A model generated the notes under the pieces. The model made no database searches. It was not told the origin of the DNA and saw only the letters and a program-made list of their open reading frames with translations. Below, one piece after another: positions 2,431 to 52,915 of a stretch of 64,000 bases of DNA. Source of the DNA: Candidatus Cloacimonadota bacterium (GTDB taxonomy: Bacteria; Cloacimonadota; Cloacimonadia; Cloacimonadales; Cloacimonadaceae); NCBI GenBank assembly GCA_018433885.1, contig JAHDQK010000019.1, positions 1 through 64,000 of the forward strand. Reading direction: 5' to 3'. Within the stretch, counting starts at the first letter, position 1. The number at the start of each line of letters is the position of its first letter. Both the position numbers and the translations under genes were made by a program.

Positions 2431-2442
2431 TAGGAGGATAAC

Positions 2443-3153
2443 ATGAAACAGGGAACACTCGTCAGAACGCAGAACGTGATAGCCGCAGACAAGTGCATCG
2501 AATACCTGCAAACCCGACCCAAGCTGGAGATGGTGGGACTTGGCTTGCTCTATGGCAGACCGGGACTGGGAAAGACCACTTATGCCAGTCGTATAGCTTT
2601 CAGTAAGGGCTATCTATATCTCCGGCTGGAGGCGACTACCACCCCTAAAGCCTTTGCCACCAAGCTGCTATTGGCCTTATACAAGAGGTTTGGTATGGGA
2701 GATTACATCCCATACGGTACAGCTAATGACCTTTTCATGATGTGTATAACGGTTCTGGAGGATCACAAGGATACGATCATAGTTGTTGATGAGATAGACT
2801 ACGCTTTCCGGCATCCCCAGCTCTTAGGTGCAATCAGGGATATAGTGGATGTGACCACAGCGATAGTGATCCTGGTCGGGATGCAGAATGCCAAGGATAA
2901 GCTCAATCAGATCAACGAGTATTACTTCGACAGATGCAACTTCTTCTATGAGTTCCAGGACTTGCCCAAGAAAGACATCGCCCAGTTATGCAGTGAGATC
3001 CTGGAAATCAGGTTCCATCCTGATATTGTGGAATATGTCCACTTCCACTCCTGCGGCAATGTCCGCAAAGCCATGAAGCTTATCCGTTCAGTGGAAGAAA
3101 TCGGCAGATACAAGAACCTTGAAGTAGTCTCCCAAGCCGATCTGGATGATTGA
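2443..3153 (+). CDS. AAA+ transposition ATPase, Mu B / TniB (TnsC)-like
   Basis: A DNA-binding ATPase that in Mu and TniAB/Tn7-like elements selects target DNA and activates the transposase. Visible features: Walker A GRPGLGKTT at about residues 40-48, Walker B IIVVDEID at about 112-119, and a sensor-1-like VILVGMQNA at about 142-150. At 236 aa the length fits TniB/MuB proteins. It starts at an ATG preceded by AGGAGG (in taataggaggataacatg). Its 3' end overlaps or abuts the small winged-helix gene, so the three genes form one transcription unit. Family assignment rests on the Walker motifs plus its position directly after a DDE transposase. Confidence 0.88.
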   Translation: MKQGTLVRTQNVIAADKCIEYLQTRPKLEMVGLGLLYGRPGLGKTTYASRIAFSKGYLYLRLEATTTPKAFATKLLLALYKRFGMGDYIPYGTANDLFMMCITVLEDHKDTIIVVDEIDYAFRHPQLLGAIRDIVDVTTAIVILVGMQNAKDKLNQINEYYFDRCNFFYEFQDLPKKDIAQLCSEILEIRFHPDIVEYVHFHSCGNVRKAMKLIRSVEEIGRYKNLEVVSQADLDD

Positions 3154-6536: not shown

Positions 6537-6791
6537 ATGTACTTTGGTTATATGAATCAATTGCTCAAAATGATGGTCACCGTGAAGCAAATCGAACAGC
6601 TTAATCAAATCTGTAACAATCCGCAGAGGAGTTACTCTCAGGAATCAGCTGAAACAGACGGAACTTGTAATGACAAAGCTGCAAAACTTGCAGATGCTTA
6701 CAGAGCATATGGCGAGTATTGCTCACTATTTGGAATAACACCAAGCGATGAAGGATTCAAGGTGTGGTACGGCGAGAACATTGATGAGTAA
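6537..6791 (+). CDS. Small hypothetical protein
   Basis: An 84-aa acidic protein of unknown function. It starts MYFGYMNQLLKMMVTVKQIEQL and ends in a compact segment with aromatic residues (YRAYGEYCSLFGITPSDEGFKVWYGENID). No motif is recognised. The strong ribosome site AAGGAGG 9 nt upstream of the ATG supports translation. It is 65 nt after the membrane/nuclease gene and 84 nt before the large ATPase gene. A sigma70-like promoter lies in that second gap, so this gene is probably the last of the first cargo unit. An immunity or antitoxin role next to a toxin-like gene is a guess based on size and position. Confidence 0.6.
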   Translation: MYFGYMNQLLKMMVTVKQIEQLNQICNNPQRSYSQESAETDGTCNDKAAKLADAYRAYGEYCSLFGITPSDEGFKVWYGENIDE

Positions 6792-6820
6792 GCAGATGCC
6801 GTGATGAGTTCATTCAAGTA

Positions 6821-6848
6821 TTGACAATTTTGATCACTCTAACATAAT
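6821..6848 (+). promoter_or_regulatory. Sigma70-like promoter of the main defence run
   Basis: TTGACA at 6821-6826, then a 16-bp spacer, then CATAAT at 6843-6848 (6/6 and 5/6 matches). Transcription would start near 6855, about 20 nt before the ATG of the 1,432-aa gene. It is the best sigma70 match upstream of the long cargo run, so that run can be expressed independently of the CARF-controlled genes. Confidence 0.6.
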
Positions 6849-6875
6849 GGAAATTTATAGGTTGTGAGGTGAAAA

Positions 6876-12800: not shown

Positions 12801-15800
12801 ATGAAAATCGCGGTTAATCAAATCATTTCCAGCCCCCTCTTCAACGAACCCATGAGGGTTGTAACCATTACTCCTGGGGGCAACGAAGTATACGTCTTAG
12901 GCTTGGTAGGGACAAAAAGCCAAAGATTTAGGCAGGTCAATCTTACTGTCTCCCAGATTGAAGATCTTGAAATCATAGATAGCGCATACACATACGCTGG
13001 GAATGCCAATCTCCTCAGGCTCGGGTTGCAAGCCTATATACTTGGTATCGCATACGAGTTCGACCCCTATTTTGGCCTATCCATATCCAAAGTTGATCCC
13101 CTACCCCATCAGCTTGAAGCGGTATATGATTACTTTCTCAAGCTTGCCAGGATAAGGTTTCTATTAGCTGATGATGCGGGAGCCGGAAAAACCATCATGG
13201 CAGGTCTGTTGATCAAGGAGCTGAAACTGCGTGGTTTGGCTGATAGAATCCTGATCGTATGCCCCTCCAATCTCTCCTTCCAGTGGCAACGCGAGCTCTT
13301 GGAGAAGTTCGACGAGAAATTCACCGTGCTCAAAGGCTCAAACATCCGCAACCAATTCGGTTCGAACCAATGGCTGGAGCATAATAGGATAATTACTTCG
13401 TTGGATTTGGCAAAACGGGAAGACATTCTGCCAGGTTTAAAACAATCTCATTGGGATCTGGTGATTGTTGACGAAGCACACAGGATGTCCTGCTCCACGG
13501 GTGGCAAGACAGCCAGGTATCAACTAGGTGAATACTTGCGAGACATTACGGATCATTTGGTTCTCTTGACCGCCACACCGCACAAGGGAGATCCCGAGAA
13601 CTTCACTTACTTCCTGCAGCTTCTGGATAAGGACGTTTTTGCTGATGTAAAGTCTATCCGCCATGCCATGGAAAACCAAAGAGCCCCTTTCTACCTGCGC
13701 AGAACCAAGGAAGCAATGGTCTATTTCCCAGAGAGAGACAGCGCCGGAAACTGGCTACAAGCTAAGATATTCACCAAGAGGATAACCCAGACTATTGCTT
13801 TCCAGATAGACGGTGCGGAATTTGATCTCTACAGAAACATCACCAACTACGTTAAGCGACAAAGCGCTTTGGCTGCCGCAGATGGTAGCAATCCAAGAGC
13901 AAAGGCCATCGGCTTCCTTATGTCCATGTATCAAAGGAGATTGGCTTCCAGCACCTATGCTATGCGCAAGAGCCTGATAAACAGGGCAAATCGCCTTGAA
14001 GACGCCTTGAAGGATGCCTATAAACTGGCTAATCAGGCACCTCCAACAATTCCGGATGAAGAAGAATGGGAAGAGATGGAGGAGTATGAAAGAGAGAAGC
14101 TGGAGCAGATATTGGAGGCGATGTCTCTTGTTGAGAATAAAGAACTGGTGAAGGCTGAGATTGCCGATTTGCGTGCTTTTGCCAAAGAAGCCGAAGCAGT
14201 GGAGCTAGCCAACCAGGAAGCTAAGCTGGCTAAGCTCAGGTTTCTGCTCCAACAAGAGGGATTCTTCGAGCATAAGGACAGACGCCTTTTGATCTTCACC
14301 GAGTTCAAGGATACACTCTATTACTTAGAGGAAAAGCTCAAGTCCTGGGGCTTTGCGGTTGGCTGCATCCATGGCAGCATGAAACCAGGTTCTCGTAACG
14401 AGCCCGGGACTAGGCTTCACTCAGAGCAGATGTTCAGAGAAGGGCAGATCCAGATTCTACTCGCCACAGAAGCTGCTGGAGAAGGCATCAATCTCCAAGT
14501 CTGTAACATTATGTTCAATTACGATATCCCCTGGAATCCCAACCGTCTGGAGCAGAGGATGGGACGTATCCACCGTTATGGACAGAAGAAGGATTGCCTG
14601 ATCTTCAACTTCGTGGCTGAAAATACCATTGAAGGCATGGTTCTGAAGAAGCTGCTGGAAAAACTCCAAAATATCCGGGATGCCTTGGATGATGATGCTG
14701 TGTTCAATGTGGTGGGTGAGGTAATGCCCTCTGATCAGATAGAACGCATATTAAGAGATTATTATGCAGGGAAGCTGGGAGATGCTGACCTGGAACTCAG
14801 GATTCTGCAAAACGTGGATGAAGACCGCTTCCGGGCAATCTGCCAGAATGCCTTGGAAGGACTTGCATCCAAGAAGCTGAATCTTAGCATGCTCATCGAG
14901 CGCAGAGCCCTCGCCCAAGAAAGAAGAGTAGTACCCGAGACCATCCACAGATTCATCAATGAAACTGCTAAAATTGCAAGTTTCACAATCAAGGATCATC
15001 CCAGCCTAGCACATAGCTTTGATCTTGGTAAAACTCCCGCGCATCTGAAATCATTCGAATCGGAGCCGGATTGGAAATTACCTGCCATGGCCAACCAATA
15101 TCCCCGCTGTACCACAGACAGAACTACTTCAGAGAAACATAATCTGGAGTGGGTTACTCCCGGACATCCTTTGTTTGAAGCTCTCAGACGCTTTACAGAG
15201 AGTAAGGCAAGAAAGGATCTAGCCAACGGTGCCGCCTACTACTCACTGCAACATTCAGAGCCAGTAAGGTTGGATTTTTACCGGGCCAGAATAGTGGATG
15301 GCTTGGGCATCGTAATCCATGAGCGCCTTTTCGTGGTAGAAATTGCTGAGTATAAAGAGCCGATCTTGCGAGAACCCACCATTATCGGAGATTTTATAGC
15401 TGCAGAATCAGAGATTGAACTGCCAGCAGTTGCATTCTCTGAGGAAGCCCTCAATTGGCTAAATGATAATGCCTTCATGCCTTTCCTGAATGAAATCAAA
15501 GCAGAACGGGAAGATGAGATAAAGCGGGTTGAGAAACACGTTGAGCTTTCCCTAACGGAGATCATCGGTAAAGCAGATCAGGAAATTGGTAAGCTGGAGG
15601 ATGAGATAAAACTAGGGGTCGCCGGAGCCGAAGGTCGCTTGGCAATAGCTGAAAACCACCAGGCCAATATGATCGCCCGCCGGGAGAAAAGAAGAAAAGA
15701 GCTTCAACAACAGAAGTCACTCACCTTGCAGGGCGTTGAACGTATCACCAGTATTGTGGTGCTTCCTCACCCCGAAGCCCAGTCCGATTCCTTGAAGAAT

Positions 15801-16199
15801 CTGAAGCCAAATTATGAAACTGAGGCAATTGCCATGAAAGTGGTTATGGAATATGAGGAATCGAGCGGCAGAAAGGTCTTTGATGTCCATGAAAAGAATC
15901 TCGGTTACGATATCACCAGCCTTGACGTATCCTCTGGAGAACTGCGCCTTATCGAAGTAAAAGGGATTGGAGCAGAATCCGGCACCATTATCCTTACTCC
16001 CAATGAAAGAAGAGTTGCCGAGGATAGGCCGGACTGTTTCTGGCTCTATGTGGTAACCAACTGCAATACTGCACCGCAACTTCAAGCTCCAATACTAAAC
16101 CCTGCCCAGTATCAATGGAATGAAGTGAAGAAAGTACAGCATTATACGATAAGCACGGCGAAGATAGTCGAAGGTAATAGGAATGGCACTAGGATTTAA
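12801..16199 (+). CDS. SNF2-family helicase with C-terminal DUF3883 (DrmD-like)
   Basis: A 1,132-aa DNA translocase of the kind found in DISARM (DrmD) and DUF1156/DUF499 modules. Visible features: PHQLEAVYDYF Q-like motif, Walker A DDAGAGKTIM near residue 128, DEAH box VIVDEAHRMS, LLTATPHKGDPENF motif III, and C-terminal helicase motifs (LIFTEFKDTL, LLATEAAGEGINLQ, RMGRIHRYGQK). A long coiled segment (about 905-960) follows. The end is a DUF3883 nuclease-like domain (NLGYDITSLD, then LRLIEVKGIG), which resembles a D-ExK restriction fold. The start is the ATG at 12,801; no strong Shine-Dalgarno is visible, consistent with coupling to the gene ending 13 nt before. The 3' end overlaps the next gene by 17 nt. 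Base composition is visibly richer in GC than the two ATPase genes upstream. Confidence 0.9.
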   Translation: MKIAVNQIISSPLFNEPMRVVTITPGGNEVYVLGLVGTKSQRFRQVNLTVSQIEDLEIIDSAYTYAGNANLLRLGLQAYILGIAYEFDPYFGLSISKVDPLPHQLEAVYDYFLKLARIRFLLADDAGAGKTIMAGLLIKELKLRGLADRILIVCPSNLSFQWQRELLEKFDEKFTVLKGSNIRNQFGSNQWLEHNRIITSLDLAKREDILPGLKQSHWDLVIVDEAHRMSCSTGGKTARYQLGEYLRDITDHLVLLTATPHKGDPENFTYFLQLLDKDVFADVKSIRHAMENQRAPFYLRRTKEAMVYFPERDSAGNWLQAKIFTKRITQTIAFQIDGAEFDLYRNITNYVKRQSALAAADGSNPRAKAIGFLMSMYQRRLASSTYAMRKSLINRANRLEDALKDAYKLANQAPPTIPDEEEWEEMEEYEREKLEQILEAMSLVENKELVKAEIADLRAFAKEAEAVELANQEAKLAKLRFLLQQEGFFEHKDRRLLIFTEFKDTLYYLEEKLKSWGFAVGCIHGSMKPGSRNEPGTRLHSEQMFREGQIQILLATEAAGEGINLQVCNIMFNYDIPWNPNRLEQRMGRIHRYGQKKDCLIFNFVAENTIEGMVLKKLLEKLQNIRDALDDDAVFNVVGEVMPSDQIERILRDYYAGKLGDADLELRILQNVDEDRFRAICQNALEGLASKKLNLSMLIERRALAQERRVVPETIHRFINETAKIASFTIKDHPSLAHSFDLGKTPAHLKSFESEPDWKLPAMANQYPRCTTDRTTSEKHNLEWVTPGHPLFEALRRFTESKARKDLANGAAYYSLQHSEPVRLDFYRARIVDGLGIVIHERLFVVEIAEYKEPILREPTIIGDFIAAESEIELPAVAFSEEALNWLNDNAFMPFLNEIKAEREDEIKRVEKHVELSLTEIIGKADQEIGKLEDEIKLGVAGAEGRLAIAENHQANMIARREKRRKELQQQKSLTLQGVERITSIVVLPHPEAQSDSLKNLKPNYETEAIAMKVVMEYEESSGRKVFDVHEKNLGYDITSLDVSSGELRLIEVKGIGAESGTIILTPNERRVAEDRPDCFWLYVVTNCNTAPQLQAPILNPAQYQWNEVKKVQHYTISTAKIVEGNRNGTRI

Positions 16200-17144: not shown

Positions 17145-19085
17145 ATGCCATGGTATGATAACCTATTAGATAATCAACGTGAAGCAGCCAGTTGCGATTG
17201 TGACAGAGTTGTGCTATTAGCGGGCCCTGGTACCGGGAAAACGCTAACGTTAACCAGGAGAGTCTGCTACTTATTAGAGGTGCAAAACGTTGACCCCAGG
17301 AACATTTGTGTAATTACGTTTTCCAGAGCTGCAGCAGCTGAACTAAGAACAAGAATTACCAAAGAATTGGGAGAAACATCGATACCCAAGACATCAACCC
17401 TCCATTCATTTGCTTTAAGTCAATTGCTTAGGTTAACAAAGTACAATAACAACTTACCTATGCCGATCAGGATTGCAGATGATTGGGAAGAAAGATACAT
17501 AGTGCTTGAAGACCTGAAAAGGCAACTAAGTATTCCCAAGGTTTCTGATGTGAATGATCTGTTGAATCAAATGTCCTCTGACTGGCAAAGCCTTACAGCG
17601 GATGAGCAGGAATGGGAAAACCGTTTCCCAAATCCTCGATTCATTGGAGCCTGGCGAGAGCATCGGCAAGTTTACGCATACACACTAAGATCAGAATTAG
17701 TATACCAATTAAAACACACAATTCAGCAGAACCCACAAATAATTGACAATATTGGTTTCGGGTACCTCCTTGTTGACGAGTACCAAGACCTTAACAGGTG
17801 TGACCTTGCAGTTATTAAATTCCTCTCGGAGGCAGGTATTCGGCTTTTTGTTTCCGGAGATGACGACCAAAGTATATATGGGTTTCGCAAAGCTCATCCA
17901 ATGGGAATCAGAAGGTTTACAGTAGATTACCAGCAATCAGAATCTAAGAATCTGAACATTTGTAAACGATGCGATCAGAACATACTAGACTTCAGCTTGT
18001 TCGTTGCAAGACAAGACCCCCTAAGGCTTGATAAAGTTATCGTATCTGACAGCACGAGAACAGCAGACATCCGTGTGCTGAGATTTGATAATCAAATCTC
18101 TGAAGCGGAGGGTATCTCACGGTTATGTAGTTACTTAATTAATCACGAAGGCATACAAGCGCATGACATACTAATCCTGCTAAGATCTAACAAGAATAAT
18201 TGTTTTTCAAACATCATTGCTAATAGTCTTCTTGATCATGGCATATCCGTAAAAACCCAGGAAACGGAATCAAGCGTCTTTGATGATACAGGGGGACGTA
18301 GGCTATTATCTTACCTGAGGCTTATCGTTAACCCAACAGATGAGCTTTCAATGAGATCTATAATACAAACAACCCAAGGTATAGGTGCAGGTGCAATTGA
18401 TGCTATCTATCGCATATGCCAAGAGAGAAATGTTAGATTTTGCCAATCCTTGGTTTTGATAGCCCAACAACCATCAATACTAACGACATGGGGAAATAGA
18501 ATCAAGCTTGCGTTTGAAAGTATACATGTGAATCTAGCTCGATATAATCAACTATATGATCCTTCATGTATTACAACCGCCGAACTTCAAAATCTGATTT
18601 CAATCATTTGTATCGATCTTGACCTGCAGGAGACTGAGCAAGTTCAAATCTTGAACTGGTTTCAAAACTATATTGACGCTTCTGATGATGATTTATTAAG
18701 GATAGACGATATCTTAAGGGAAAAAGACACCTCACTCGAGAATGCCGAAGTCGTCTTTGAAAAAGGCAAGGTTCATATAATGTCAATGCATAAAGCTAAA
18801 GGCCTAACCGCCGAAGCAGTTATAATACCAGCATGCGAAGATGAGCATATACCTGGACGGAATACTGAAATTGAATCCATGAAAGAAGAAATGCGCTTAT
18901 TGTACGTATCTTTGACGCGCGCAAAGCATTATTTATACCTGACCTATTGTAATAGGAGAACTGATAGCCAATGTTATGCAGGTAGTAATTTAGGTCGGAC
19001 TCAACGAACTTTATCACGGTTTCTTGCAGATGCTCCTGTCTCACCTACTGACGGTACACAATTCACAAGGAGTTTACCTAATTAA
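17145..19085 (+). CDS. UvrD/Rep-family (superfamily 1) DNA helicase
   Basis: A 646-aa protein with the full UvrD/Rep set: Q-motif LLDNQREAASC, Walker A LAGPGTGKTLTLTRR, motif Ia ITFSRAAAAEL, motif II LLVDEYQDLN, motif III VSGDDDQSIYGF, motif V SMHKAKGLTAEAVIIP, and motif VI LLYVSLTRAKHYL. It unwinds DNA 3'-5' in repair, but in this context probably processes phage DNA with the neighbouring Mrr-like nuclease. A comparable helicase-nuclease pairing occurs in Gabija, whose partner is an OLD-type nuclease rather than Mrr. It ends one base before the ATG of the methylase. The C-terminal 2B/1B regions are shorter than in E. coli UvrD (720 aa). Confidence 0.88.
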   Translation: MPWYDNLLDNQREAASCDCDRVVLLAGPGTGKTLTLTRRVCYLLEVQNVDPRNICVITFSRAAAAELRTRITKELGETSIPKTSTLHSFALSQLLRLTKYNNNLPMPIRIADDWEERYIVLEDLKRQLSIPKVSDVNDLLNQMSSDWQSLTADEQEWENRFPNPRFIGAWREHRQVYAYTLRSELVYQLKHTIQQNPQIIDNIGFGYLLVDEYQDLNRCDLAVIKFLSEAGIRLFVSGDDDQSIYGFRKAHPMGIRRFTVDYQQSESKNLNICKRCDQNILDFSLFVARQDPLRLDKVIVSDSTRTADIRVLRFDNQISEAEGISRLCSYLINHEGIQAHDILILLRSNKNNCFSNIIANSLLDHGISVKTQETESSVFDDTGGRRLLSYLRLIVNPTDELSMRSIIQTTQGIGAGAIDAIYRICQERNVRFCQSLVLIAQQPSILTTWGNRIKLAFESIHVNLARYNQLYDPSCITTAELQNLISIICIDLDLQETEQVQILNWFQNYIDASDDDLLRIDDILREKDTSLENAEVVFEKGKVHIMSMHKAKGLTAEAVIIPACEDEHIPGRNTEIESMKEEMRLLYVSLTRAKHYLYLTYCNRRTDSQCYAGSNLGRTQRTLSRFLADAPVSPTDGTQFTRSLPN

Positions 19086-26778: not shown

Positions 26779-28464
26779 GTGAAGAATAAAACAACATCCC
26801 TTAAGAGCATCGTTAAGTATCTAAACAACAAAGATGAGGATGGTGGGTTCTGGTTACCCAATATCCAGAGAGCATTTGTATGGAAAGAAGAACAGATATG
26901 CAAGCTGTACGATTCAATAATGCGTGAATACCCAATTAGTTCTCTTCTAGTATGGAAGACGGTATCCCCAATATCTACACGGAAATTTATCGATAACTAT
27001 AAGATTAAATATGAAAATGAGCTGAGTGGTTTCATTAATCAGACAGATGAGAAGAAGAAAAACTTGGTTCTTGATGGGCAACAGAGGCTACAGAGCCTTT
27101 ATATAGGGTTAATGGGGTCATATGAGGGCAAAGAATTATACTTCGACACAACCAGTAATCACGATGATATCAAGGAAGAAATCAGATATAGGTTTGCTTT
27201 TTTGGAACAATCGAAGGTGACATTTCCGTGGGTTAAGGTTAAGGACATTGTATATGGACCGAAGAATTGGAACTTGGCATTCAAAAATGTGGTTGCAGGA
27301 TACAAAAATGACTGGAATCCAGCATACGAGGAAATCGTAAAAAACAACATTGCCTCAATTGTCCAGATATTTACCTCAGATGAGGGGATCTCATATCAAG
27401 AAATTGACAGCACCGAAAATGATGGATTATATACTGATAATGACATAGTTGAGATTTTTATCCGAGCAAATTCCGGAGGTACTCTATTAGGTAAATCGGA
27501 TTTGTTATTTGCCTTGCTAGCTGCCAACTGGGATAAAGCTATAACTGCCATAGAAGACCTCTTAGACGATTTAAACCGTAATGGCTTTGATTTTACTAGA
27601 GACTTTGTTTTGAAAACATGCCTGACTCTTCTCGACAAATATGCTCGTTATGATGTTGATAAGTTTAGAGACCAGTCTGTGTTGCAAGGTATTGAAGAAA
27701 ACTGGGATAGAATTTCTAATTCAATCAAAGTTGTATGTGATTATCTCCGCAGCCGGACATTTATCAGGACAGATAAAGCTCTTCCTTCGTACTTGATATT
27801 GATCCCCATTATTTATGGAGTGTACAAATATAAAGTTGATATAAATCAGGTTCCAAAACTTAACGAGTACTTAATCCGAGTATCACTGGTCGGTGCTTAT
27901 GGCTCTCGTCCAGACCAACTTATAGATGCCAGTGTAAAGGCAATTCAGAACAAGAAGGATATTGTAGTCGAGGAACTTTACGAAGTTATCAGGCAACAGC
28001 AACGACCGCTTGAGATTACTGGAGAGAAACTTATGCAAATCAGTTACGGCTCCAAAAACATCCACTTACTCTTCAATCTCTGGTATGAATCATTCGAGTA
28101 TACCCCTGTCTTTTACAACAATGTTCCACAAACAGACCACATTTTTCCACGAAGCATATTAGAAAAGGTGAAAATTCTCAATCCTGAGACAAACAGAAAA
28201 GTCATGAAGTACACAGAATCACAAAGAAATCAATTAGCAAATTGCATGTTATTGACTAGAAAAGAGAATGGTGCTAGTGAAAAATGGGATACCTCTCCAG
28301 AGGAATGGTTCAAGGATAAAACTAGTGATTATCTTGATTTACATTTAATCCCGCGAGATCCTGCCTTGTGGACACTGGATAATTACGACCGCTTCATTGA
28401 AGAGAGGAAGAAGCTAATACTGAATAAATTTAGGTATTTGATATCTCAGGATACGACAATTTAG
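26779..28464 (+). CDS. GmrSD-family type IV restriction protein (DUF262 + HNH DUF1524-like)
   Basis: A 561-aa single-chain protein. The N-terminal DUF262/GmrS domain shows WLPNIQRAFVW, then EYPISSLLVWK, and the NTP-binding LVLDGQQRLQSL at about residues 95-106. The C-terminal GmrD/DUF1524-like HNH region shows TDHIFPRSIL at about 454-463 and NQLANCMLL. GmrSD and related BrxU enzymes use an NTP to cut phage DNA with modified bases. It starts at GTG 26,779; no better in-frame start is near, and the ribosome site is weak. It is the last cargo gene, 83 nt after the DUF499 gene and 22 nt before the transposon-end repeats. It would complement a methylation-based system by attacking phages that evade it through base modification. 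Confidence 0.88.
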   Translation: MKNKTTSLKSIVKYLNNKDEDGGFWLPNIQRAFVWKEEQICKLYDSIMREYPISSLLVWKTVSPISTRKFIDNYKIKYENELSGFINQTDEKKKNLVLDGQQRLQSLYIGLMGSYEGKELYFDTTSNHDDIKEEIRYRFAFLEQSKVTFPWVKVKDIVYGPKNWNLAFKNVVAGYKNDWNPAYEEIVKNNIASIVQIFTSDEGISYQEIDSTENDGLYTDNDIVEIFIRANSGGTLLGKSDLLFALLAANWDKAITAIEDLLDDLNRNGFDFTRDFVLKTCLTLLDKYARYDVDKFRDQSVLQGIEENWDRISNSIKVVCDYLRSRTFIRTDKALPSYLILIPIIYGVYKYKVDINQVPKLNEYLIRVSLVGAYGSRPDQLIDASVKAIQNKKDIVVEELYEVIRQQQRPLEITGEKLMQISYGSKNIHLLFNLWYESFEYTPVFYNNVPQTDHIFPRSILEKVKILNPETNRKVMKYTESQRNQLANCMLLTRKENGASEKWDTSPEEWFKDKTSDYLDLHLIPRDPALWTLDNYDRFIEERKKLILNKFRYLISQDTTI

Positions 28465-44691: not shown

Positions 44692-47229
44692 TCAGAGCCG
44701 CGGGGTGGCGTTGTATTCGCCATAGAGGATTCTGCGCACCTGATTTACCATTTCATCCGGGAGGATGGGTTTATGCAACACGTAGCGGATGTTTGCTTCT
44801 TCTGCCCGCCGCTGAAGATCACGATCCAGATATCCCGTATAAAGAATCACAGGGAGATTTCTGATAGCCCGGATGGCTTTTATCAGCTTGATTCCGTCTA
44901 TACCTGGCATATTGATATCCGCAACCACGATATCGAAGTGCGAGGGATCCTGGCTAAAACTATGCAGTGCCAGATGCGCGTCTGTAAACGCTTCAACCCT
45001 GTAGCCTGCATCTACCAGAGCATCTCGGAAGATCTCCGCTAGCGCAGGTTCGTCGTCCACTATCATCACCGATGCCTCGATAAAAGGTAATTCCGGCATG
45101 GGAAGTGCTCCCTCAGGAATATCATGTTGTTCCGACGCCGGGAGATATACGTTGAAGGTAGAACCATGTTCCAAAACACTCTGTACGGTAACAAATCCTT
45201 TGTAACCGGTAACAATGCCATGAACGATGGATAGCCCCAAACCGGTTCCTTCCCCAGAGCTTTTGGTGCTGAAATAGGGGTCGAAGATGCGGGAAATGAT
45301 GGATGGGGGAATGCCACAGCCCGTATCGCTTACTTTCAGATGCAGATATGCGCTTTCCAGGGCTACTTTGGGATCAATCCCGATCAGCTCGAAACCGCTT
45401 ACTTCGTTCAGGCTGATGCTTAAGGTTCCCCCCTCTACATTCATCGCGTGTGCGGCATTGGAAGCCAAATTGATGATTATCTGAGATAGCGACGAACTAT
45501 CTGCCAATGTACAGCGGCGGCTGTCTATATTGGTCTCGATATGGATTCTGGCAGGCAGGGCAGCACGGATCATGGGCAGAGCTTCTTCGATTACATCCGC
45601 GAAGATGATGTTACCCATATCCTCGATGCTTTGCCGGCTGAAAGCCAAAATCTTTCCGATCAGACTGCTGGCTCTCATGCATGCTTTAATCGCCTCATCC
45701 AAATTGCGGTGAGCTTCATTTGACTGTTCCAGCCGGGCAGAACTAAGCGAGATATAGCCGGCGATGATCGTAATGATATTATTGAAATCATGCGCTATGC
45801 CCCCGGCAAGGGTTCCCAGAGATTCCATCTTTTGGGATTGCCGGAGCTTGTTTTCCAGATTTTTAAGATCCGTGAGATCCCGGGTAATAAAGATCAGCTT
45901 TGTAGGGCTATTGGATTCGTCCATGATCACAGATGCGCTTACCAAGGCGGAGAACATGCTACCGTCCACTCTTTGCACCCGTAACTCCTGATTTCGGATG
46001 TACACCCCCTTGATGAGATCTTGCAACATCTTCAGAAACTGTTTGCGCTCAGTGGGATGCACGATATCCGAGAACTTCAGATCCGCACTAAGTAGCGCAT
46101 GATCGTCCGGGGCATTTAATAAACGGAGAGTTTCGTCGTTCACACTCAGCATGGTGCCATCGAGATCGGTAACGATGATGGATTCCGGAGAGGTAAGGAA
46201 TATCTTCCGGGTCTGCTCTTCCATCTCTTTTAGTTTCGCTTCAGTCCGGCTACGCTCGGCAATTTCCAGCACCAGTTCATTCTTTTGTTCGAAGAATCGT
46301 TTGATCAAGCGGGCTACATCCGCGAATTCGTTACCGATATCCGAAAGTGGTGCAATCAATGAAGGATCGCCCTGCTTGAGAGATTGCGAGATCAGCCCCA
46401 TAGGTGCGCTGATCCACTGTTGGATCAGGAAGTATTGCATTAAAAGAAAGATAAAGATAAAGCCCATCGTGCCAAAGAGGATCAAGTTTCCCAAGCTGCG
46501 CAGAGTAGCCAGAAACGGGTTTGAACTATAGAAGGTAAGCCATGCAATTGTATTGTTTTGCGCATCCGAGATCGCTCTTACGATTCTGGTATTGTAATGA
46601 TCCGAACTCTGGGTATCACCGGGATCGAGCAAAGAAATGCGGATATCGTAATTCAAGGCTTTTGCCAGGGAGTTTAGATACGAATAATCATAGAGTTGCC
46701 CCAAAAGGATGTAACCTTGGGGAGTTTTCTGCCTATCGGGATCCGTCGTGGCGTGAATAGTTCCTACGGTGCAGGAAAGGATGGTGTTACTGAAGCGCGT
46801 GTGATAACTGAATTTATGCTCGGATAACAGTGAATCTCCCGCGGCATAAGGCAGCCGATATTCACCCAGACCAGTGGCAGTTTCTGCCCAATCATTGTAG
46901 AGCAGATTGCCCTCTTCATCGTAAACCTGCACCAAAGAATAGCCAAAAACCGGGATTATGGTATCCAGATTGCGCCGCGCCCATTGGGTATCGTTATCCC
47001 TTACATACTCTACCATTTTATCCCAGATGGAGTAGTCTTCCACCAGATTGGTCTGGGCGTCAGCCTTCATTTGGAAGATGGCATCGATGGTAAGACGCCT
47101 CTGAAAAACGTCCCCCTCGCTATATAGCCGCAATTCTTCCTGTTTGATATGATAAAACAAGTAGAAGAACGCTCCAAAAGCAAAAGCGATGACTATGAAG
47201 AGAATCAGTAGCCGGGTGGAGATGCTCAT
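44692..47229 (-). CDS. Membrane hybrid sensor histidine kinase (CHASE4-HAMP-PAS-HisKA-HATPase-REC)
   Basis: 845 aa. TM1 at about 5-25 (LLILFIVIAFAFGAFFYLFY) and TM2 at about 235-260 (LILFGTMGFIFIFLLM) flank a periplasmic CHASE4-like sensor (DYSIWDKMVEYVRDNDTQWA). A HAMP-like segment, then a PAS domain (SPESIIVTDLDGTMLSVNDE) follow. The dimerisation/phosphoacceptor motif GGIAHDFNNIITIIAG has His near 479; the ATP-binding domain shows NLASNAAHAM, DTGCGIPPSI and GEGTGLGLSIVHGI. A C-terminal receiver domain (MIVDDEPALAEIF, Asp near 768 in VVADINMPGIDG) ends the chain. It lies 3 nt after the secretin gene in the pilin/secretin cluster. The signal sensed is unknown; phosphorelay to the nearby response regulator is plausible. 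Confidence 0.9.
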   Translation of the reverse strand: MSISTRLLILFIVIAFAFGAFFYLFYHIKQEELRLYSEGDVFQRRLTIDAIFQMKADAQTNLVEDYSIWDKMVEYVRDNDTQWARRNLDTIIPVFGYSLVQVYDEEGNLLYNDWAETATGLGEYRLPYAAGDSLLSEHKFSYHTRFSNTILSCTVGTIHATTDPDRQKTPQGYILLGQLYDYSYLNSLAKALNYDIRISLLDPGDTQSSDHYNTRIVRAISDAQNNTIAWLTFYSSNPFLATLRSLGNLILFGTMGFIFIFLLMQYFLIQQWISAPMGLISQSLKQGDPSLIAPLSDIGNEFADVARLIKRFFEQKNELVLEIAERSRTEAKLKEMEEQTRKIFLTSPESIIVTDLDGTMLSVNDETLRLLNAPDDHALLSADLKFSDIVHPTERKQFLKMLQDLIKGVYIRNQELRVQRVDGSMFSALVSASVIMDESNSPTKLIFITRDLTDLKNLENKLRQSQKMESLGTLAGGIAHDFNNIITIIAGYISLSSARLEQSNEAHRNLDEAIKACMRASSLIGKILAFSRQSIEDMGNIIFADVIEEALPMIRAALPARIHIETNIDSRRCTLADSSSLSQIIINLASNAAHAMNVEGGTLSISLNEVSGFELIGIDPKVALESAYLHLKVSDTGCGIPPSIISRIFDPYFSTKSSGEGTGLGLSIVHGIVTGYKGFVTVQSVLEHGSTFNVYLPASEQHDIPEGALPMPELPFIEASVMIVDDEPALAEIFRDALVDAGYRVEAFTDAHLALHSFSQDPSHFDIVVADINMPGIDGIKLIKAIRAIRNLPVILYTGYLDRDLQRRAEEANIRYVLHKPILPDEMVNQVRRILYGEYNATPRL

Positions 47230-47232
47230 TAC

Positions 47233-48378
47233 TTATTCCGGTTGAATATGTACCTCTTGAGCTTCCTTCTGGATTTTACGCAGCCTGTCCAGAGCGCTGT
47301 CCAAGATCTCCGCGCGGATAGTGATGATCAGTTCCCGCTCCCGCTTCTCGTAAGAATCGTATCCGGTAAGGTAACGCAAGCCAAATACCCACCAGGGCAG
47401 GTCTTTCAGGATCGGTACCCCACTGCGTACTTTGGTTTCATCCGTATCGAAGAGCCCGGCAATTACGGCTTCCTCGCGGTTGTAGAGGATCAACTCTGTG
47501 CTGGAAGTGCTTTTTGTAATCACCGTGGATATCGCTGAAGGCTGGCCGCTGGAACGCTCGATGCTTAGCTTCATCATGATCAGCTCTTCGCCATCCACCA
47601 TCACGATGGTAGGCGTCACATTCATGATAATACCGGTGGCATAGAACGAATCCTTTGTGTTTCCTGCCTCGTCCGCCGTCTTGATCGAGATATCCTGGCC
47701 CACCTGGATGTTGCCTGTTTTCCCGCTTGTTACCAAGATGCTCGGCTCTGCCAGGATGCTACCCTTTTGGTTAGATTCGATGGTGCGGATTAGAGTGTTT
47801 ATATCCACGGTATACTTTCCGATATCCGCGGATCCGGAACCAGAGAGAGTAAAGGGCGAAACCAATTGAGAGCCCCCGGCAAATCCCGCGTTTACGGTAA
47901 CTTGACCATTGAACACCGAAGACCAATCCACCCCCAGGTTTTTCAGATAACTGCGATCTGCCAGCATCGCCACCGCTTTGATGCGAACTTGCTTGGCTTC
48001 GGCATTCTTCTGTTCCTCAGAAGGCTCTGTGTGACCCGGCGTTCCCGGAGAGGACACGCCATAATCCGCATCACGTACGGCATAATAGCCTACTCCTTCT
48101 TCCAGCTTCAGATCGTTTTGCATCAGGATCAGATCCAAGGCTCTGCGCCATTCCAGGTTGCTGATCGGGATATTGATACTCCCGTTGTATTTGGAAAGGT
48201 TCAGCATCTTTCGACCGTTTTCCTGAAGGCTGAAATGCTCCATGATCTGCATGGCTTCGTTGATGTGTGTATCTTCCTTCATACTGATCCTGCTCACTTT
48301 GGCAGGCTTTTCCTGAGCGTATATCAGGGAAGCTAAGAGCATCAGGATCAGACAAATGATAAAGTGCGTCTTATGCAT
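47233..48378 (-). CDS. Secretin-domain (GspD/PilQ-family) outer-membrane protein
   Basis: 381 aa with a signal peptide (THFIICLILMLLASLIYAQ). An N-terminal domain resembling STN/secretin N0 follows at about 30-100 (ISMKEDTHINEAMQIMEHFS, then WRRALDLILMQNDLKLEEGV). The secretin core runs from about 130 to 360 (VDWSSVFNGQVTV, IESNQKGSILAEPSILVTSG, ATGIIMNVTPTIV, VIAGLFDTDETKVRSGVPIL). It is much shorter than usual GspD/PilQ proteins (600-700 aa): the N1-N3 periplasmic repeats are missing. Expected to form an outer-membrane pore for pilin or protein export. The neighbouring pilin-like and LamG genes are possible substrates. Confidence 0.85.
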   Translation of the reverse strand: MHKTHFIICLILMLLASLIYAQEKPAKVSRISMKEDTHINEAMQIMEHFSLQENGRKMLNLSKYNGSINIPISNLEWRRALDLILMQNDLKLEEGVGYYAVRDADYGVSSPGTPGHTEPSEEQKNAEAKQVRIKAVAMLADRSYLKNLGVDWSSVFNGQVTVNAGFAGGSQLVSPFTLSGSGSADIGKYTVDINTLIRTIESNQKGSILAEPSILVTSGKTGNIQVGQDISIKTADEAGNTKDSFYATGIIMNVTPTIVMVDGEELIMMKLSIERSSGQPSAISTVITKSTSSTELILYNREEAVIAGLFDTDETKVRSGVPILKDLPWWVFGLRYLTGYDSYEKRERELIITIRAEILDSALDRLRKIQKEAQEVHIQPE

Positions 48379-48387
48379 GCTTAAACC

Positions 48388-49239
48388 TCAATTCTCTTTT
48401 GTAAGATACAAGACCTGGTTCTCTTCCAAACCGTATTTATCCACTTTGAAAACTGCCTTGTTATCGCGTTGGTCGATACTGTATAGATATCCGCCCAACA
48501 CCTTATCCCGCAGGTTAAGGATGCGGATGATGCCCTGGTTATCTCTTAGGAATATCTGTTTGTTCCCGATTCCGATGAGGATACTGCTATCGATATTCAC
48601 CAGATTGGGATCCTGTTCTTCATGCTCATCATACTGAGCGGAATCCCACACCAAAGAACGGAAAAGCTGATAGGGGCTCAGGTCTGCGTTGATCTGCGCT
48701 AACCTGATATCCTGCCAATCCAATCCGCTGGAATGATAATGCGTATTCAACACCATCGAAAACGACACAGTATCGCTGTTTGCCACTCCATCTGAGCCAA
48801 GAGAGAGCTCCGAGCTTTTGATCACACTCGTCTGAGCTTCTTCCCGGTCGCTTCCGGCATCCCCCAAATCCGTTACGTGAGCCAGACCGGAATCCACCAC
48901 CTTGATCAATTCCTCCGGTTGGATCGGCTTGGTAAGATAGTGATACGCCCCGGTACGGATTGCCCGGATTGCCACATCGATACTGGAGAAGCCGGTAGTT
49001 ACGATAATCACCGCCAAAGGTTGAATCTCTTTCAATCTGGCAATCAGCTCCAGCCCGCCCATGCGGGGCATGTAGATATCGATGATATATAGTGAATATT
49101 TGGTGTATTCCACCTTTTCCAAGGCATCCACTCCATCCACCGCGACGCTGACTTCATAGCCCAGATCACCGAGAAATTCACTGATGATATCCCGGATGTT
49201 TTGCTCGTCGTCCACCACCAGAATCTTGCGGGAATTCAT
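48388..49239 (-). CDS. Response regulator with unrecognised output domain
   Basis: 283 aa. An N-terminal receiver domain is clear (KILVVDDEQNIRDIISEFL; phospho-acceptor Asp near 54 in YIIDIYMPRMGG; Thr and Lys in IIVTTGFSS and YLTKPIQPEE). After a Ser/Asp-rich linker (about 125-155), the C-terminal part (SMVLNTHYHSSGLDWQDIRL, then IGIGNKQIFLRDNQGIIRIL) has no DNA-binding or enzymatic motif that I recognise. Its start overlaps the kinase-like gene by 4 nt, so the two are coupled. It may act by protein contact, perhaps on the secretion machinery. Confidence 0.85.
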   Translation of the reverse strand: MNSRKILVVDDEQNIRDIISEFLGDLGYEVSVAVDGVDALEKVEYTKYSLYIIDIYMPRMGGLELIARLKEIQPLAVIIVTTGFSSIDVAIRAIRTGAYHYLTKPIQPEELIKVVDSGLAHVTDLGDAGSDREEAQTSVIKSSELSLGSDGVANSDTVSFSMVLNTHYHSSGLDWQDIRLAQINADLSPYQLFRSLVWDSAQYDEHEEQDPNLVNIDSSILIGIGNKQIFLRDNQGIIRILNLRDKVLGGYLYSIDQRDNKAVFKVDKYGLEENQVLYLTKEN

Positions 49240-50255
49240 GAATCCTCCCCTTTTTGCGGTTTATCTTGCGTCGCCAACAGGTTTTCCAACGCAGGATCGA
49301 TCTTATCGTGATCAGTCGTTTGTTTCTGACGACTCATAGTGTAGGTAGTCTGTAGTTTCGAGATGTCCAGGTTGCCGGCAGGCGCAGCCACTTTGGTATA
49401 GTCTTCTTTACCTGGTGAAGCGCGATAACCGATCAAAGGGTTGTCTTTTATGCTTTGCAAGCGCTGTAACAAAAGTGAGATTTTGTTTACCGCTTCTGTG
49501 ATCTCGTTATTACTTTTATTTAGTCCCTCGTTACGCAGTTCGTTGGCATAGCGCTTTACTCTGCCCAAGGATAAAGTGATCACACACAGTGGGGTATTGA
49601 TATCGTGGTCTAGATGGGCAATTTCCTTCAGCGCGGGCAACAATCTTTCCATTTCACTTTTCCATTCTTCGCATTTCTTCAGTTCTTCCACTTGTCTTGC
49701 CAGAAGTTCGTTGGTGCGGCGGTCTTTACTTAACTGATCCGAAAGATAGTTCGCGATCAACGCCACTCCACTGAAGAGCCCGGTATAAGAAAGAAGATAA
49801 ACCGTTGAGCCGCTCATATCCATCACGGAGCTTTCCATGGTTTCCAAAATCCCGTTTTGATACATTACAATTAGGACAAGCAGGGCGAAACTGCCACAGA
49901 GCCCGGCAATAACTCCCCCATTTTGCGGCATCATCAGCGACGCTGTGATCACTCCGATCAGATACGCCCATACAAAGAAGCTTTGCATACCTCCGGTAAA
50001 GTGCACAATTAAAGTGGCAAACACAATATCCAGAGCTACCTGAAAGAGTACTACAAGGCGATGTGGATCCTTTGCCTGCACCTGGAAAAGCAGATTCAAT
50101 GCCACAATCCCCCCAAACACCATGAAAAACAGCATGCTTTGATACATACCATCCCGGAAACTGATGTGTAAAAGCCCGATCGAGAAGAGCACGATCACTA
50201 AAAACCAGCGTACCATGCCCCAAAGTCTTAGAAGTTTTTGTGTTTCGTTTTCCAT
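49236..50255 (-). CDS. Membrane protein with histidine-kinase DHp motif but no ATPase domain
   Basis: 339 aa. The N-terminal half has about five or six hydrophobic segments (WFLVIVLFSIGLLHISF, SMLFFMVFGGIVALNLLF, GVIAGLCGSFALLVLIVMY, VYLLSYTGLFSGVALIANYL). A coiled segment and a HisKA-like helix with the H-box LDHDINTPLCVITLSLGRVK (His near 216) follow. The chain ends in a low-complexity region without N, G1 or G2 boxes, so the catalytic HATPase domain is absent rather than divergent. It overlaps the response-regulator gene by 4 nt. Possible roles: a phosphotransfer/phosphatase partner, or a substrate of the hybrid kinase two genes away. Confidence 0.8.
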   Translation of the reverse strand: MENETQKLLRLWGMVRWFLVIVLFSIGLLHISFRDGMYQSMLFFMVFGGIVALNLLFQVQAKDPHRLVVLFQVALDIVFATLIVHFTGGMQSFFVWAYLIGVITASLMMPQNGGVIAGLCGSFALLVLIVMYQNGILETMESSVMDMSGSTVYLLSYTGLFSGVALIANYLSDQLSKDRRTNELLARQVEELKKCEEWKSEMERLLPALKEIAHLDHDINTPLCVITLSLGRVKRYANELRNEGLNKSNNEITEAVNKISLLLQRLQSIKDNPLIGYRASPGKEDYTKVAAPAGNLDISKLQTTYTMSRQKQTTDHDKIDPALENLLATQDKPQKGEDS

Positions 50256-50266
50256 CTGCCTTGTCC

Positions 50267-51466
50267 TTAGTCTCTAATATATTGAATATCTGCAGGGTTC
50301 AATACCAGATTATAGTAGCTCCAAATCTCCGCATCTGTGAGGGTGCGTGGCACCAAACCTACCTGATCCATCAAACCATACATATACTTGAATTGGGGGT
50401 CTCCGGCTTGCGGCGCGCCAAAATACTCTCTCCCCAGATATATCCCTTGGTTACGCACAGCATTCGGGCGATAGTAGGGAAACAAGGGATTCACCTGTTC
50501 TCCCACTGGTAAACCGTTTATGTATCCTTTCACTCTGCCCCGGTCGTAAGTAAGCGCGAAAAAATGCCATTTGTCTTTGTTGTGTGGCCAGGATCCATCC
50601 GGGGTGAAGGGAGCGGTCACAGTTACCGTACTGCCATCCACAGTGGTCGCCCGGTAATACATGTTACCGCTTTGATACCACATTCCGCCCGTAGGTTGTT
50701 TGCGCACAGTTCCGGGTCCGGAAACGATTCCCGTAAATGCCGGATCTGATGTATCCGAGGGAAGCCAGACCAGGGTCGCGGCGGGATGCCCAGCCCGGAT
50801 CTTGGCAAATGCCATAATCGTGAAGTTTGAAGTCATCGTGAGGCTCTCGTTTCCGGCGTGCATGATGTAGCCTCCACCAGAACCGAAGCTCGCACATTTC
50901 CAGCCATCCACACCCTGTCCCATGGGGCGGGTAGTTACATTCCCATAAAACAGCGCATCGTTATCATTATCTGAGGAATCCCACACATGGTTCCAGTTCG
51001 CGGAAGGGTTAAACTGCGGCTGATCCATCTCCAGATGAACCGCATAATCCAGATTTAACATTACCACCAAAGGAAAGCTGAATGCCAGCTCCGCTTTGTA
51101 CTGAATAGTCTGATCCTGAGCGCCTCCGCTCACATAACTGACCGCCCGGTAGCTGTTGGCACCCGTTTCGTCGTCCGCACCTACGAAGGTATAGCGGATA
51201 CTATCGATTTGGCAATCCTGCACATTGAAACCATTAAATTCCTGAGTCCACATCACTACCGAACCCGGACCCGCCATCATCCCCAAAGAGATGGAATTGC
51301 GTACCGCCGTTCTCAGCGCATAGTCGGACACACTTTCAGCCTGTTTGGTAAGCTGGTTGCGTTGAATAATCCTGGGGAGATCCAGCATCCGGCGTTGCAT
51401 CGTTATCAACACTCCGGAGTAAATCGCTGTCATCAATACCACTACGATCAGTGCAGCACGTCCCAT
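50267..51466 (-). CDS. Surface protein with LamG/concanavalin-like domain and N-terminal membrane helix
   Basis: 399 aa. A single N-terminal hydrophobic helix (AALIVVVLMTAIYSGVLITM) followed by polar residues resembles the start of pilus-associated or pseudopilin-like proteins. Residues about 165-385 look like a LamG/concanavalin A-like jelly roll: MTSNFTIMAFAKIRAGH, WHFFALTYDRGRVKGYINGL, YGLMDQVGLVPRTLTDAEIW. Such domains bind carbohydrates or mediate adhesion. AGGGGGA precedes the ATG. It lies in the pilin/secretin cluster and may be displayed through it. The binding partner is unknown. Confidence 0.78.
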   Translation of the reverse strand: MGRAALIVVVLMTAIYSGVLITMQRRMLDLPRIIQRNQLTKQAESVSDYALRTAVRNSISLGMMAGPGSVVMWTQEFNGFNVQDCQIDSIRYTFVGADDETGANSYRAVSYVSGGAQDQTIQYKAELAFSFPLVVMLNLDYAVHLEMDQPQFNPSANWNHVWDSSDNDNDALFYGNVTTRPMGQGVDGWKCASFGSGGGYIMHAGNESLTMTSNFTIMAFAKIRAGHPAATLVWLPSDTSDPAFTGIVSGPGTVRKQPTGGMWYQSGNMYYRATTVDGSTVTVTAPFTPDGSWPHNKDKWHFFALTYDRGRVKGYINGLPVGEQVNPLFPYYRPNAVRNQGIYLGREYFGAPQAGDPQFKYMYGLMDQVGLVPRTLTDAEIWSYYNLVLNPADIQYIRD

Positions 51467-51499: not shown

Positions 51500-51831
51500 T
51501 CATGAAGAAACACTTGAATTGTATTTTTTTGTGCGTATGGGCTGGCTGCCTTCGCGAGGCGGATCGTGGTAAAACCCCATCCGGATTTCAGCAGCACGAG
51601 CCAGGGATGCGTTTGTGGTAAGTTGGTCATTCTTGGTATAATATCTGAACTTCAGTTCATCGATCCAAAACAGATAACCCAGATCATCCAGCGGCACCCC
51701 ATCCTGTGCCAACAACACGGCAATACCGTATGGATCCGGGGCTTCGCTGCCTTGCCGCTATCCGCCATAAAAGTGCCCTGTACCAGCTTACCCTGAGCTC
51801 CGATCCCCTTGAAGCGGTATTCTTTGGCCAT
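51500..51831 (-). pseudogene. Small frameshifted gene in the pilin cluster
   Basis: From an ATG at 51,831 with GGAG upstream, the frame reads MAKEYRFKGIGAQGKLVQGT, followed by FMADSGKA. It then turns into Cys/Trp-rich nonsense. A second frame, entered near 51,750-51,765, continues sensibly: DPYGIAVLLAQDGVPLDDLG, YLFWIDELKFRYYTKNDQL, to the stop at 51,500. Joining them needs one single-base shift and gives a ~110-aa protein. The opening resembles the N-terminus of GspF/PilC-type proteins (basic-aromatic, G-x-L-V-x-G, A-x-S), but the remainder does not. It could be a true mutation, a sequencing error, or two separate reading frames. Confidence 0.5.
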
Positions 51832-52016
51832 GGCTACTCCACGGTTTTTTTATTTTATTGTCCAATCATCTCCATTAATGTAATCATCGCAAAACCATAT
51901 GCGAGAACATCCCAATCACATTCACACAAGCATCCATAACTCTCTGATACTATATCCACTTGCGGCATCCATCCAAGCGAATATTTGTCCATGATATCAT
52001 TTTCCCTAATAAGTAA

Positions 52017-52087
52017 GATTGGTCAAGAGAATTCTTGACCAATCCTTAAAATCTGAGATATCATCAGCAAATCTATCCGATTTGCTG
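52017..52087 (-). terminator. Two tandem hairpins downstream of the pilin-like gene
   Basis: In the direction of the pilin-like gene, a 9-bp stem CAGCAAATC/GATTTGCTG (52,065-52,087) is followed by a 12-bp perfect stem GATTGGTCAAGA/TCTTGACCAATC (52,017-52,044) and then a T-rich TTACTTATT on the minus strand. This probably ends or processes the pilin transcript, giving it a stable 3' end relative to downstream genes. Confidence 0.65.
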
Positions 52088-52097
52088 GTAAACCCAA

Positions 52098-52523
52098 TTA
52101 TTCAACTGGTTCGTCAGTAGCTTGCGCAGTAACTCCGTCATCAGCGAGAGTAACAGTAGTTTCAATCTTCGGACGCATGTCGTTTCTGATGGCAGTTCCG
52201 AGACCGGTAATTACAACAGTAACACTATCAGCAGCAGTAATTTCATAAGTACCGTTTTCGTTTTTTGCGTTTTCGCCAGTGAGACCAAGATAGTCTCTTA
52301 CGTTTTCAGGTGTCATGTTGTCGCCATTTCCACCAGCTCCACCCTGGGACTCAGGGGTCTTCCAGTAATGCAGAACTTGAGCTGCAAAAGCCTGAGCATC
52401 AGATGCGATAGCTGTTTTGTTCGCATTGTAGGCTTGGCTGTTAAACATGCTGATACCGACGGCGATAGCTACACCGACGATGATAACGCTGAGTACGATC
52501 AAAAGAATTTGTTGGGTTCCCAT
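52098..52523 (-). CDS. Pilin-like secreted/surface protein
   Basis: 141 aa. The N-terminus MGTQQILLIVLSVIIVGVAI, followed by AVGISMFNSQAYNANKTAIA, is a hydrophobic helix running into an amphipathic helix, as in type IV pilins and archaeal-like small pilins. There is no classical G/FTLIE prepilin cleavage site. The C-terminal part is Gly/Asn/Thr-rich (GGAGGNGDNMTPENVRDYLG) and ends in beta-like segments (YEITAADSVTVVITGLG). AAGGAG lies 7 nt before the ATG. It has its own sigma54-type promoter about 95-110 nt upstream and a strong terminator, so it is probably an abundant, regulated structural subunit. Confidence 0.78.
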   Translation of the reverse strand: MGTQQILLIVLSVIIVGVAIAVGISMFNSQAYNANKTAIASDAQAFAAQVLHYWKTPESQGGAGGNGDNMTPENVRDYLGLTGENAKNENGTYEITAADSVTVVITGLGTAIRNDMRPKIETTVTLADDGVTAQATDEPVE

Positions 52524-52616
52524 GGTAATCTCCTTTTTGGGGTTAGTTTTTTTTAATTAGTGTATCACAACTTTGTGTTCACTCTATAACTTGTGCCTAA
52601 GCACGGCTAGCTATAG

Positions 52617-52633
52617 TGCACAGGTTGTGCCAA
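52617..52633 (-). promoter_or_regulatory. Sigma54 (-24/-12) promoter of the pilin-like gene
   Basis: On the minus strand the sequence TTGGCACAACCTGTGCA has GG and GC doublets exactly 12 bases apart. It matches the consensus TTGGCAC-N5-TTGCA except for one base. A second TTGGCAC half-site lies 9 bp upstream. Transcription would start about 12 nt downstream (near 52,606), leaving an ~80-nt leader before the ATG at 52,523. Pilin genes driven by RpoN are well known (for example pilA of Pseudomonas with PilR). Confidence 0.75.
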
Positions 52634-52915
52634 TTGTGCCAATGCCCGGTTTTTTAACCCAGTCATGCACAAGCTATCTGCTTGTAATATAGCAATATAG
52701 GGAAGAGAGTATTTATCCCCGGATACCATATATTCCCTGTTTTTCGACGCCCTTCTATGTATCCTTTAGTTAAATATTCGCAGTATTGCCGTGTCTCTAA
52801 GGGGACACTTATTCGGATTCTGAATTAAATTCAATGACAAATGCGAACTTGATGACATCAGATTTGCATTCAACCGGCAAGATATTCCCCTTTTACAGAT
52901 AGCTAAAATAAAAAC

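Follow-up and report, generated by a model that had tools for sequence, protein, structure and literature searches.

A conserved sigma-54 promoter of a pilin-like gene in Cloacimonadota and its likely PilR-like activator

Introduction

In a genome of Candidatus Cloacimonadota, a motif of the −24/−12 type lies ahead of a pilin-like gene, which raises the questions of whether it is a sigma-54 promoter, which activator would serve it, and whether the gene it would drive is still part of a pilus. We know of almost no regulatory data for the phylum Cloacimonadota. A promoter together with its upstream sites and a probable activator offers a testable handle on when pili are made. Type IV pilus genes are described in almost all digester Cloacimonadota genomes, where they form part of one hypothesis for electron transfer to methanogens (PMC13082233); a term search of the main text of that article returned no mention of RpoN, sigma or pilin. 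Here we analyze the stretch of 64,000 nucleotides that contains the motif (referred to as the window), the remainder of its genome, and related loci in other genomes.

The promoter site

The 17-mer TTGGCACAACCTGTGCA, at 52617-52633 on the minus strand, is a −24/−12 (sigma-54) type site with TTGGCAC as the −24 and GTGC as the −12 element, and it is found only once in the window even when three mismatches are allowed. The distance from GG to GC is 10 nt, confirming the correct spacing claimed in the initial annotation, and comparison to TGGCAC-N5-TTGC shows one mismatch, a G for T in the −12 element (GTGC for TTGC). TGGCAC begins 109 nt ahead of the ATG of a 141-aa ORF (52098-52523, minus strand), and a sigma-70 scan found no minus-strand site between TTGGCACAACCTGTGCA and this ORF. 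At sigma-54 promoters, transcription usually begins 12 nt past the GC; this geometry predicts a start at 52605-52607 (minus strand), and with it an 82-84-nt leader. The −24 box is doubled at 52617-52642 (minus strand, TTGGCACAATTGGCACAA), with a second TTGGCAC 9 nt upstream.

Sites with at most one mismatch number eight in the window and 231 in the 2.42-Mb genome, where a reversed control pattern yields 68. Arithmetic from the genome count gives a chance of about 1% per oriented 250-nt stretch, the figure that speaks for reading the motif as a chance match with no promoter function. Since it carries one mismatch and 231 such sites exist in the genome, the window motif by itself is weak evidence for a promoter and is not striking. 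Exact matches elsewhere in the genome were rejected as evidence, as all five lie inside stop-to-stop frames of 294-720 codons; one of these, at L046, is followed 46 nt downstream by a start codon and might be a real promoter. This check covered 30 loci, of which 27 were readable automatically.

The strong terminator that had been assigned to the pilin-like gene was upheld only in part. The hairpin that follows the gene at 52015-52046 (minus strand) is indeed strong (−22.9 kcal/mol, z −5.2), but it has no T run on the minus strand and a terminator scan did not list it. The palindrome also matches at the hairpin position in L081, L072 and, on one strand, L074.

Conservation of the promoter in relatives

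Homologues of the pilin-like protein were detected in 30 of the 40 genomes searched, the window's own genome counted, and a scan of the collection kept 79 loci, mostly labelled Candidatus Cloacimonadota, the other labels being Neomarinimicrobiota, Kryptonia, Ignavibacteriae, Bacteroidetes, Gemmatimonadetes, Armatimonadetes and Deltaproteobacteria. The 250 nt upstream of 91 distinct pilin-like genes from relatives, the window gene excluded, contained a site at 34, 56 and 72 genes when zero, at most one and at most two mismatches were allowed, respectively. With thirty dinucleotide shuffles the corresponding means were 0, 0.27 and 6.6 and the maxima 0, 1 and 12, so that the two-mismatch count is partly chance. 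Wrong spacers of 2, 3, 4, 6, 7 and 8 nt gave 0, 0, 0, 0, 0 and 1 exact matches and 7, 3, 0, 2, 0 and 1 matches with at most one mismatch among the same 91 genes, and the opposite strand of the 91 upstream regions gave none of either kind. A stricter count that demanded exact GG and GC yielded 34, 51 and 58 genes, a filter that missed sites ending in TTGT or TTGA in L091, L093, L096, L104 and L116. This count drew on ORFs with the N-terminal pattern from 77 of the 79 loci (92 ORFs, one of which was dropped for having under 120 nt of upstream sequence).

No site with at most one mismatch was present within 250 nt upstream of 35 of the 91 genes. These include all listed genes from Kryptonia, Ignavibacteriae, Gemmatimonadetes and Neomarinimicrobiota, many, not all, of the second copies in arrays, and certain Cloacimonadota genes present singly, for example those at L083 and L137. 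One locus labelled Armatimonadetes (L125) and one labelled Deltaproteobacteria (L148) do carry an exact site. The presence of this promoter is therefore mainly a Cloacimonadota trait.

Because the site is conserved across related pilin-like genes when measured against the shuffles, we take the window site to be a real sigma-54 promoter, a conclusion supported by conservation and not by the lone motif, with the caveat that related genomes are not independent samples. The position of the site ahead of a pilin-like gene, as initially annotated, was likewise borne out, as it corresponds to the conserved promoter of such genes in relatives. L081, a relative of the same genus (UBA5210), carries the same GTGC deviation in its −12 element. 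Conservation at fixed spacing, together with the paired dyads described below, contradicts a chance match, which we consider exceedingly improbable.

RpoN and the likely activator

The inference that the organism has RpoN proved correct, as a genome search found rpoN (E 1.9e-50), and the suggested search for a PilR-like activator produced a candidate on contig C62. The genome encodes eight strong Sigma54_activat genes, two weak hits on C66 and C1 having been left out. The candidate gene (C62, 61010-62422, minus strand) encodes a receiver domain, a Sigma54_activat (AAA+) domain and a Fis-type HTH; the HTH_8 match of the C62 protein is weak (17.2 vs. a cut-off of 22) and that of its L098 homologue passes (27.5).

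Fourteen activators are encoded in the 79 loci, and 13 of them match the C62 protein best (405-473 bits, with 252-296 for the next best) in a comparison that covered seven of the genome's eight activators, C44 being left out; the fourteenth (L146) is encoded on the opposite strand and has another activator as its match. The C62-type gene ends 302-714 nt before the pilin gene in nine of these 13 loci and lies 2.4-4.8 kb before it in four, and in several a histidine kinase precedes the activator. All 13 loci in which this linkage was seen are of other families. C62-type activators were found in 28 of the 40 genomes at E ≤ 1e-100. Among the 30 genomes with a pilin match, a promoter site with at most one mismatch was found in 24 of the 26 that have the activator and in none of the four that do not (one-sided Fisher p ~0.0006 by our own arithmetic, relatedness ignored). 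This table used the stricter site filter and, in activator-bearing genomes, covered a subset of the pilin copies; the best gene of G030 had only 80 nt of upstream sequence, and the divergent N-termini of G005 and G020 were scored from the start of the match. G004 and G038 have the activator and no good site, with a truncated pilin copy at a contig end of G038 that does have one, and G001 and G031 have the activator and no pilin match. The activators of G025, G026, G030 and G033 are just 41-44% identical and may not be orthologous to the C62 type.

Because its homologues lie near the pilin gene in other families and co-occur with the promoter, the PilR-like C62 regulator is the likely activator of the pilin promoter. 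The promoter might be real and driven instead by another sigma-54 activator of the genome (C87, C63, C16, C70, C44 or C85), given that eight strong activators are available and that sigma-54 activators can share targets; the association of the C62 type with the pilin in other families (13 of 14 activators) and its co-occurrence with the promoter argue against this alternative, which we consider quite unlikely.

The neighbour of the C62 activator gene in the window's genome encodes a 198-aa protein with a HisKA match only, which to the eye looks like a shortened form of the L098 kinase, and no pilus gene was seen in the 13 kb read around the activator. HisKA proteins with no detected ATPase domain are encoded both beside the C62 activator (L158, 7420-8016, minus strand) and in the window (49236-50255, minus strand).

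The initial annotation held that no sigma-54 activator was visible in the cluster. This is accurate for the pilus cluster, in which none was found, but the window does contain one, the sole activator detected there, at 3685-5235 (minus strand), an RtcR/PspF-type activator with a CARF-like N-terminus (PADLOC RtcR_PspF2--CARF_AAA_HTH, E 4e-112). It was rejected as the pilin regulator, being CARF/RtcR-like over its length and having defence-type neighbours. The gene adjoins Mu/TniB-type transposition genes (217-3153) and defence-like genes. The region from 6876 to 28464 is a likely defence island, with an HmaA/DrmD-like helicase (12801-16199), a GmrSD/HEC-05-type gene (26779-28464) and large unnamed proteins.

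Putative activator sites upstream of the promoter

Candidate activator sites were sought in 50 stricter promoters plus that of the window, divided into the window's family and others by hand from locus order and genome handles, with no tree. The sequence TGTCA peaks 120-200 nt upstream of the −24 boxes at 12 per kb, compared with 0.5-5.4 per kb per bin elsewhere out to 400 nt. Counts of k-mers and exact dyads gave only a hint of TGTCA and model fitting was needed; the fitted 18-bp dyad reads TGTCAT-N6-ATGACA in the other families and takes the looser form TGT-N12-ACA in the window's family. In 14 of 23 promoters of the window's family and in 22 of 28 of the others, the best and second-best dyads are 28-36 bp apart, while controls in which all but the best site was shuffled gave means of 2.0 and 1.8, respectively, and a largest value of 6; dyad spacing played no part in the fitted model. 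No pair at 28-36 bp was found in nine of the 23 and six of the 28. Separations of 31 bp are the most frequent in the other families, and those of 31-34 bp in the window's family. Such separations correspond to about three helical turns, which would place both copies on one face of the DNA.

The window carries a putative activator site, the dyad TGTCCCCTTAGAGACACG, at 52790-52807 (minus strand), −175 from the −24 box. It scores 12.8 bits with a model built without the window site, and 95% of 300 shuffles score below 9.9. A possible degenerate second site at 52758-52775 (minus strand), 32 bp nearer the promoter and therefore at the conserved spacing, scores 1.5 bits and ranks third in 418 nt. 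The window has a single strong dyad, with a degenerate second copy at best.

The double dyad also offers a means of listing other targets of the activator. A search of 16 genomes of the order for two dyads exactly 31 bp apart with at most three mismatches returned six places, and the reversed control returned none. At four of the six, a sigma-54 site with at most one mismatch follows 86-140 nt downstream on one strand; the other two have none. One of the four, in G028, precedes a gene of the window-type pilin family. Another, at G029:C171:8245-8293 (L189), lies ahead of a gene for a 438-aa protein beginning MGRFAIIIVLTLILLL, with a pilin-like start, which is a possible second target of the activator. 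The third, in G038, is some 5 kb away from the activator gene and immediately precedes a pilin start at the end of a contig, and the fourth had no gene readable by script. Involvement of IHF near the promoter was considered and rejected, as the exact consensus occurs in the 120 nt upstream of only two of the 51 promoters.

The pilin-like protein

The product of the gene at 52098-52523 starts MGTQQILLIVLSVIIVG and lacks the Glu at mature position 5; searches of Pfam and NCBIfam assigned it to no family, N_methyl included. Residues M1, G2, Q4 and Q5 are invariant in 43 sequences chosen for an MG-type start and are followed by a hydrophobic run. A putative prepilin peptidase site and a hydrophobic helix are recognizable from the sequence, and the genome has one prepilin peptidase gene. 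In the AlphaFold2 prediction (pLDDT 87, pTM 0.69), residues 2-55 form a helix and a sheet of four strands is present, a fold consistent with the general type IV pilin layout. Foldseek gave no significant match to a solved structure (best E 0.065) and no pilin among the 50 matches shown, and the best sequence-profile hit was to a geopilin chain (E 0.43). We therefore call the protein pilin-like because of its start and its neighbours.

Both the Glu at mature position 5 and the N_methyl match are found in a canonical pilin encoded on contig C1 (L160, 17546-17983, in the region 17546-18046). A sigma-54-like box, TTGGCACACATCGTGCA, lies 47 nt before the ATG of this gene and has the same GTGC deviation as the window site; its upstream region contains no convincing dyad (8.3 bits vs. 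9.9 for the null).

The pilus cluster and its missing genes

The pilin-like gene is followed, all on the minus strand, by an out-of-frame remnant in which the start of PilC is fused to the tail of a small pilin-like gene (51500-51831, identified by comparison with L081), a 399-aa LamG-domain protein with a pilin-like start (50267-51466), a protein with a PilS-like membrane domain and a weak HisKA match in which no ATPase domain was found (49236-50255), a receiver-domain protein in which no AAA+ or HTH domain was found (48388-49239), a secretin (47233-48378) and a CHASE4-PAS-histidine kinase-receiver hybrid (44692-47229), the last five assigned by domain search. L081 encodes, in order, the pilin, PilC (446 aa), PilB (593 aa), a pair of small proteins, the LamG protein and the PilS-like protein; the small proteins (142 and 190 aa) have no Pfam match and, judged from their hydrophobic starts, are probably minor pilins. 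PilC and PilB follow the pilin in L098 as well. Alignment of the window to L081 by blastn joins L081 position 6777 to 10540, so that about 3.8 kb are missing, with flanks that overlap by about 8 nt. The genes for PilC, PilB and the minor pilins are thus absent from the window locus and that for the secretin is retained. Elsewhere in the genome, strong hits to PilB and PilC were confined to C1; they are 36% and 22% identical to the L081 proteins and belong to a canonical pilus set with the N_methyl pilin.

The gap could be an assembly error or a minority variant in a species that keeps a complete operon, as the assembly of the window genome is a draft of 91 contigs. Two observations make this unlikely: the ~8-nt overlap of the flanks relative to L081 is too short for a usual de Bruijn misjoin, and the missing PilC and PilB have no close homologue elsewhere in a genome that is 99.87% complete. 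Within the genus, a second PilC type (~445-457 aa), judged by frame length and score and present in pieces at contig ends in G008, was found in nine of 12 genomes and was absent from G000, G001 and G005. From its absence in three of 12 genomes and the gap in the window, the pilus system therefore seems prone to loss, and the window genome seems to represent one step of that loss.

The proposal that a sigma-54 activator controls surface display is accordingly doubtful, as the PilC and PilB dedicated to the operon of this gene in relatives are missing here, and in the window genome, which has no dedicated motor, "pilin present" should not be read as "pilus present". The site may even be a relic, a promoter and pilin left from an operon that lost its motor and no longer used. 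The absence of the PilC, PilB and minor-pilin genes, the GTGC deviation of the −12 box, the degenerate second dyad, and the lack of the second PilC type in G001 and G005 of the genus are consistent with disuse; against it, the pilin frame is unbroken, one of the dyads is strong, and PilC and PilB are retained in L081, which shares the GTGC. On balance we regard disuse as somewhat unlikely.

A model for control of the pilin promoter

We propose that the window site very probably serves as a sigma-54 (RpoN) promoter for the pilin-like gene, whose counterparts in relatives stand first in a type IV pilus operon of Cloacimonadota, and that this promoter is run by the PilR-like C62 activator. RpoN-RNA polymerase would bind the −24/−12 box, while the C62 activator would bind dyads located mostly 115-190 nt upstream, which in many relatives are present in two copies about three helical turns apart, and would open the promoter with ATP through looping of the intervening DNA. 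The signal might reach the activator by phosphorylation, for which the hybrid kinase at 44692-47229 would be one candidate source. In the window genome the promoter would drive a pilin with no dedicated assembly motor, a protein that may be taken over by the second, canonical pilus machine, encoded on C1, or may be on its way out.

More tentatively, these loci may define a separate Cloacimonadota type IV pilus lineage whose pilins are without Glu5 and which has a sigma-54 switch of its own, with the activator at two dyads three turns apart and, in the window's genome, sensors without ATPase domains. The system would be undergoing gene-by-gene loss in the genus; the window pilin would have kept its promoter after loss of the motor and may be borrowed by the C1 machine.

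Comparison with known systems

Limited searches of the open-licence literature found no description for this phylum, pilin family or enhancer layout. The control proposed here is of a kind already known, that of pilins by PilR and RpoN, in a distant phylum. In Pseudomonas aeruginosa, pilA is controlled by PilS-PilR and RpoN, with NifA-like PilR sites described as TGT-N11-AGA with GTCT elements (PMC6058289). The window system resembles it in having a sigma-54 promoter, a receiver-type activator and a six-helix PilS sensor, and the TGT-N12-ACA dyads resemble the TGT-N11-AGA sites. It differs in that the activator is encoded on another contig, the PilS-like protein has no detected ATPase domain, the pilin has no Glu5, and dyads often occur as pairs 31-34 bp apart.

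In commensal Neisseria, pilE is described as having an RpoN promoter, the Npa/Nps two-component activator and an upstream activator sequence (PMC6528607), an arrangement of promoter, activator and upstream sites before a pilin gene that is also predicted here; the Neisseria system, as described there, uses IHF, whereas the exact IHF consensus is found here in only two of 51 promoters. In Geobacter sulfurreducens, pilA is described as having an RpoN promoter and being located immediately after pilR (PMC2725144). Unlike this gene, the window pilin belongs to no Pfam or NCBIfam family and has its activator on another contig; the Geobacter arrangement is nonetheless approached in nine of the 79 loci, where a C62-type activator ends 302-714 nt before the pilin.
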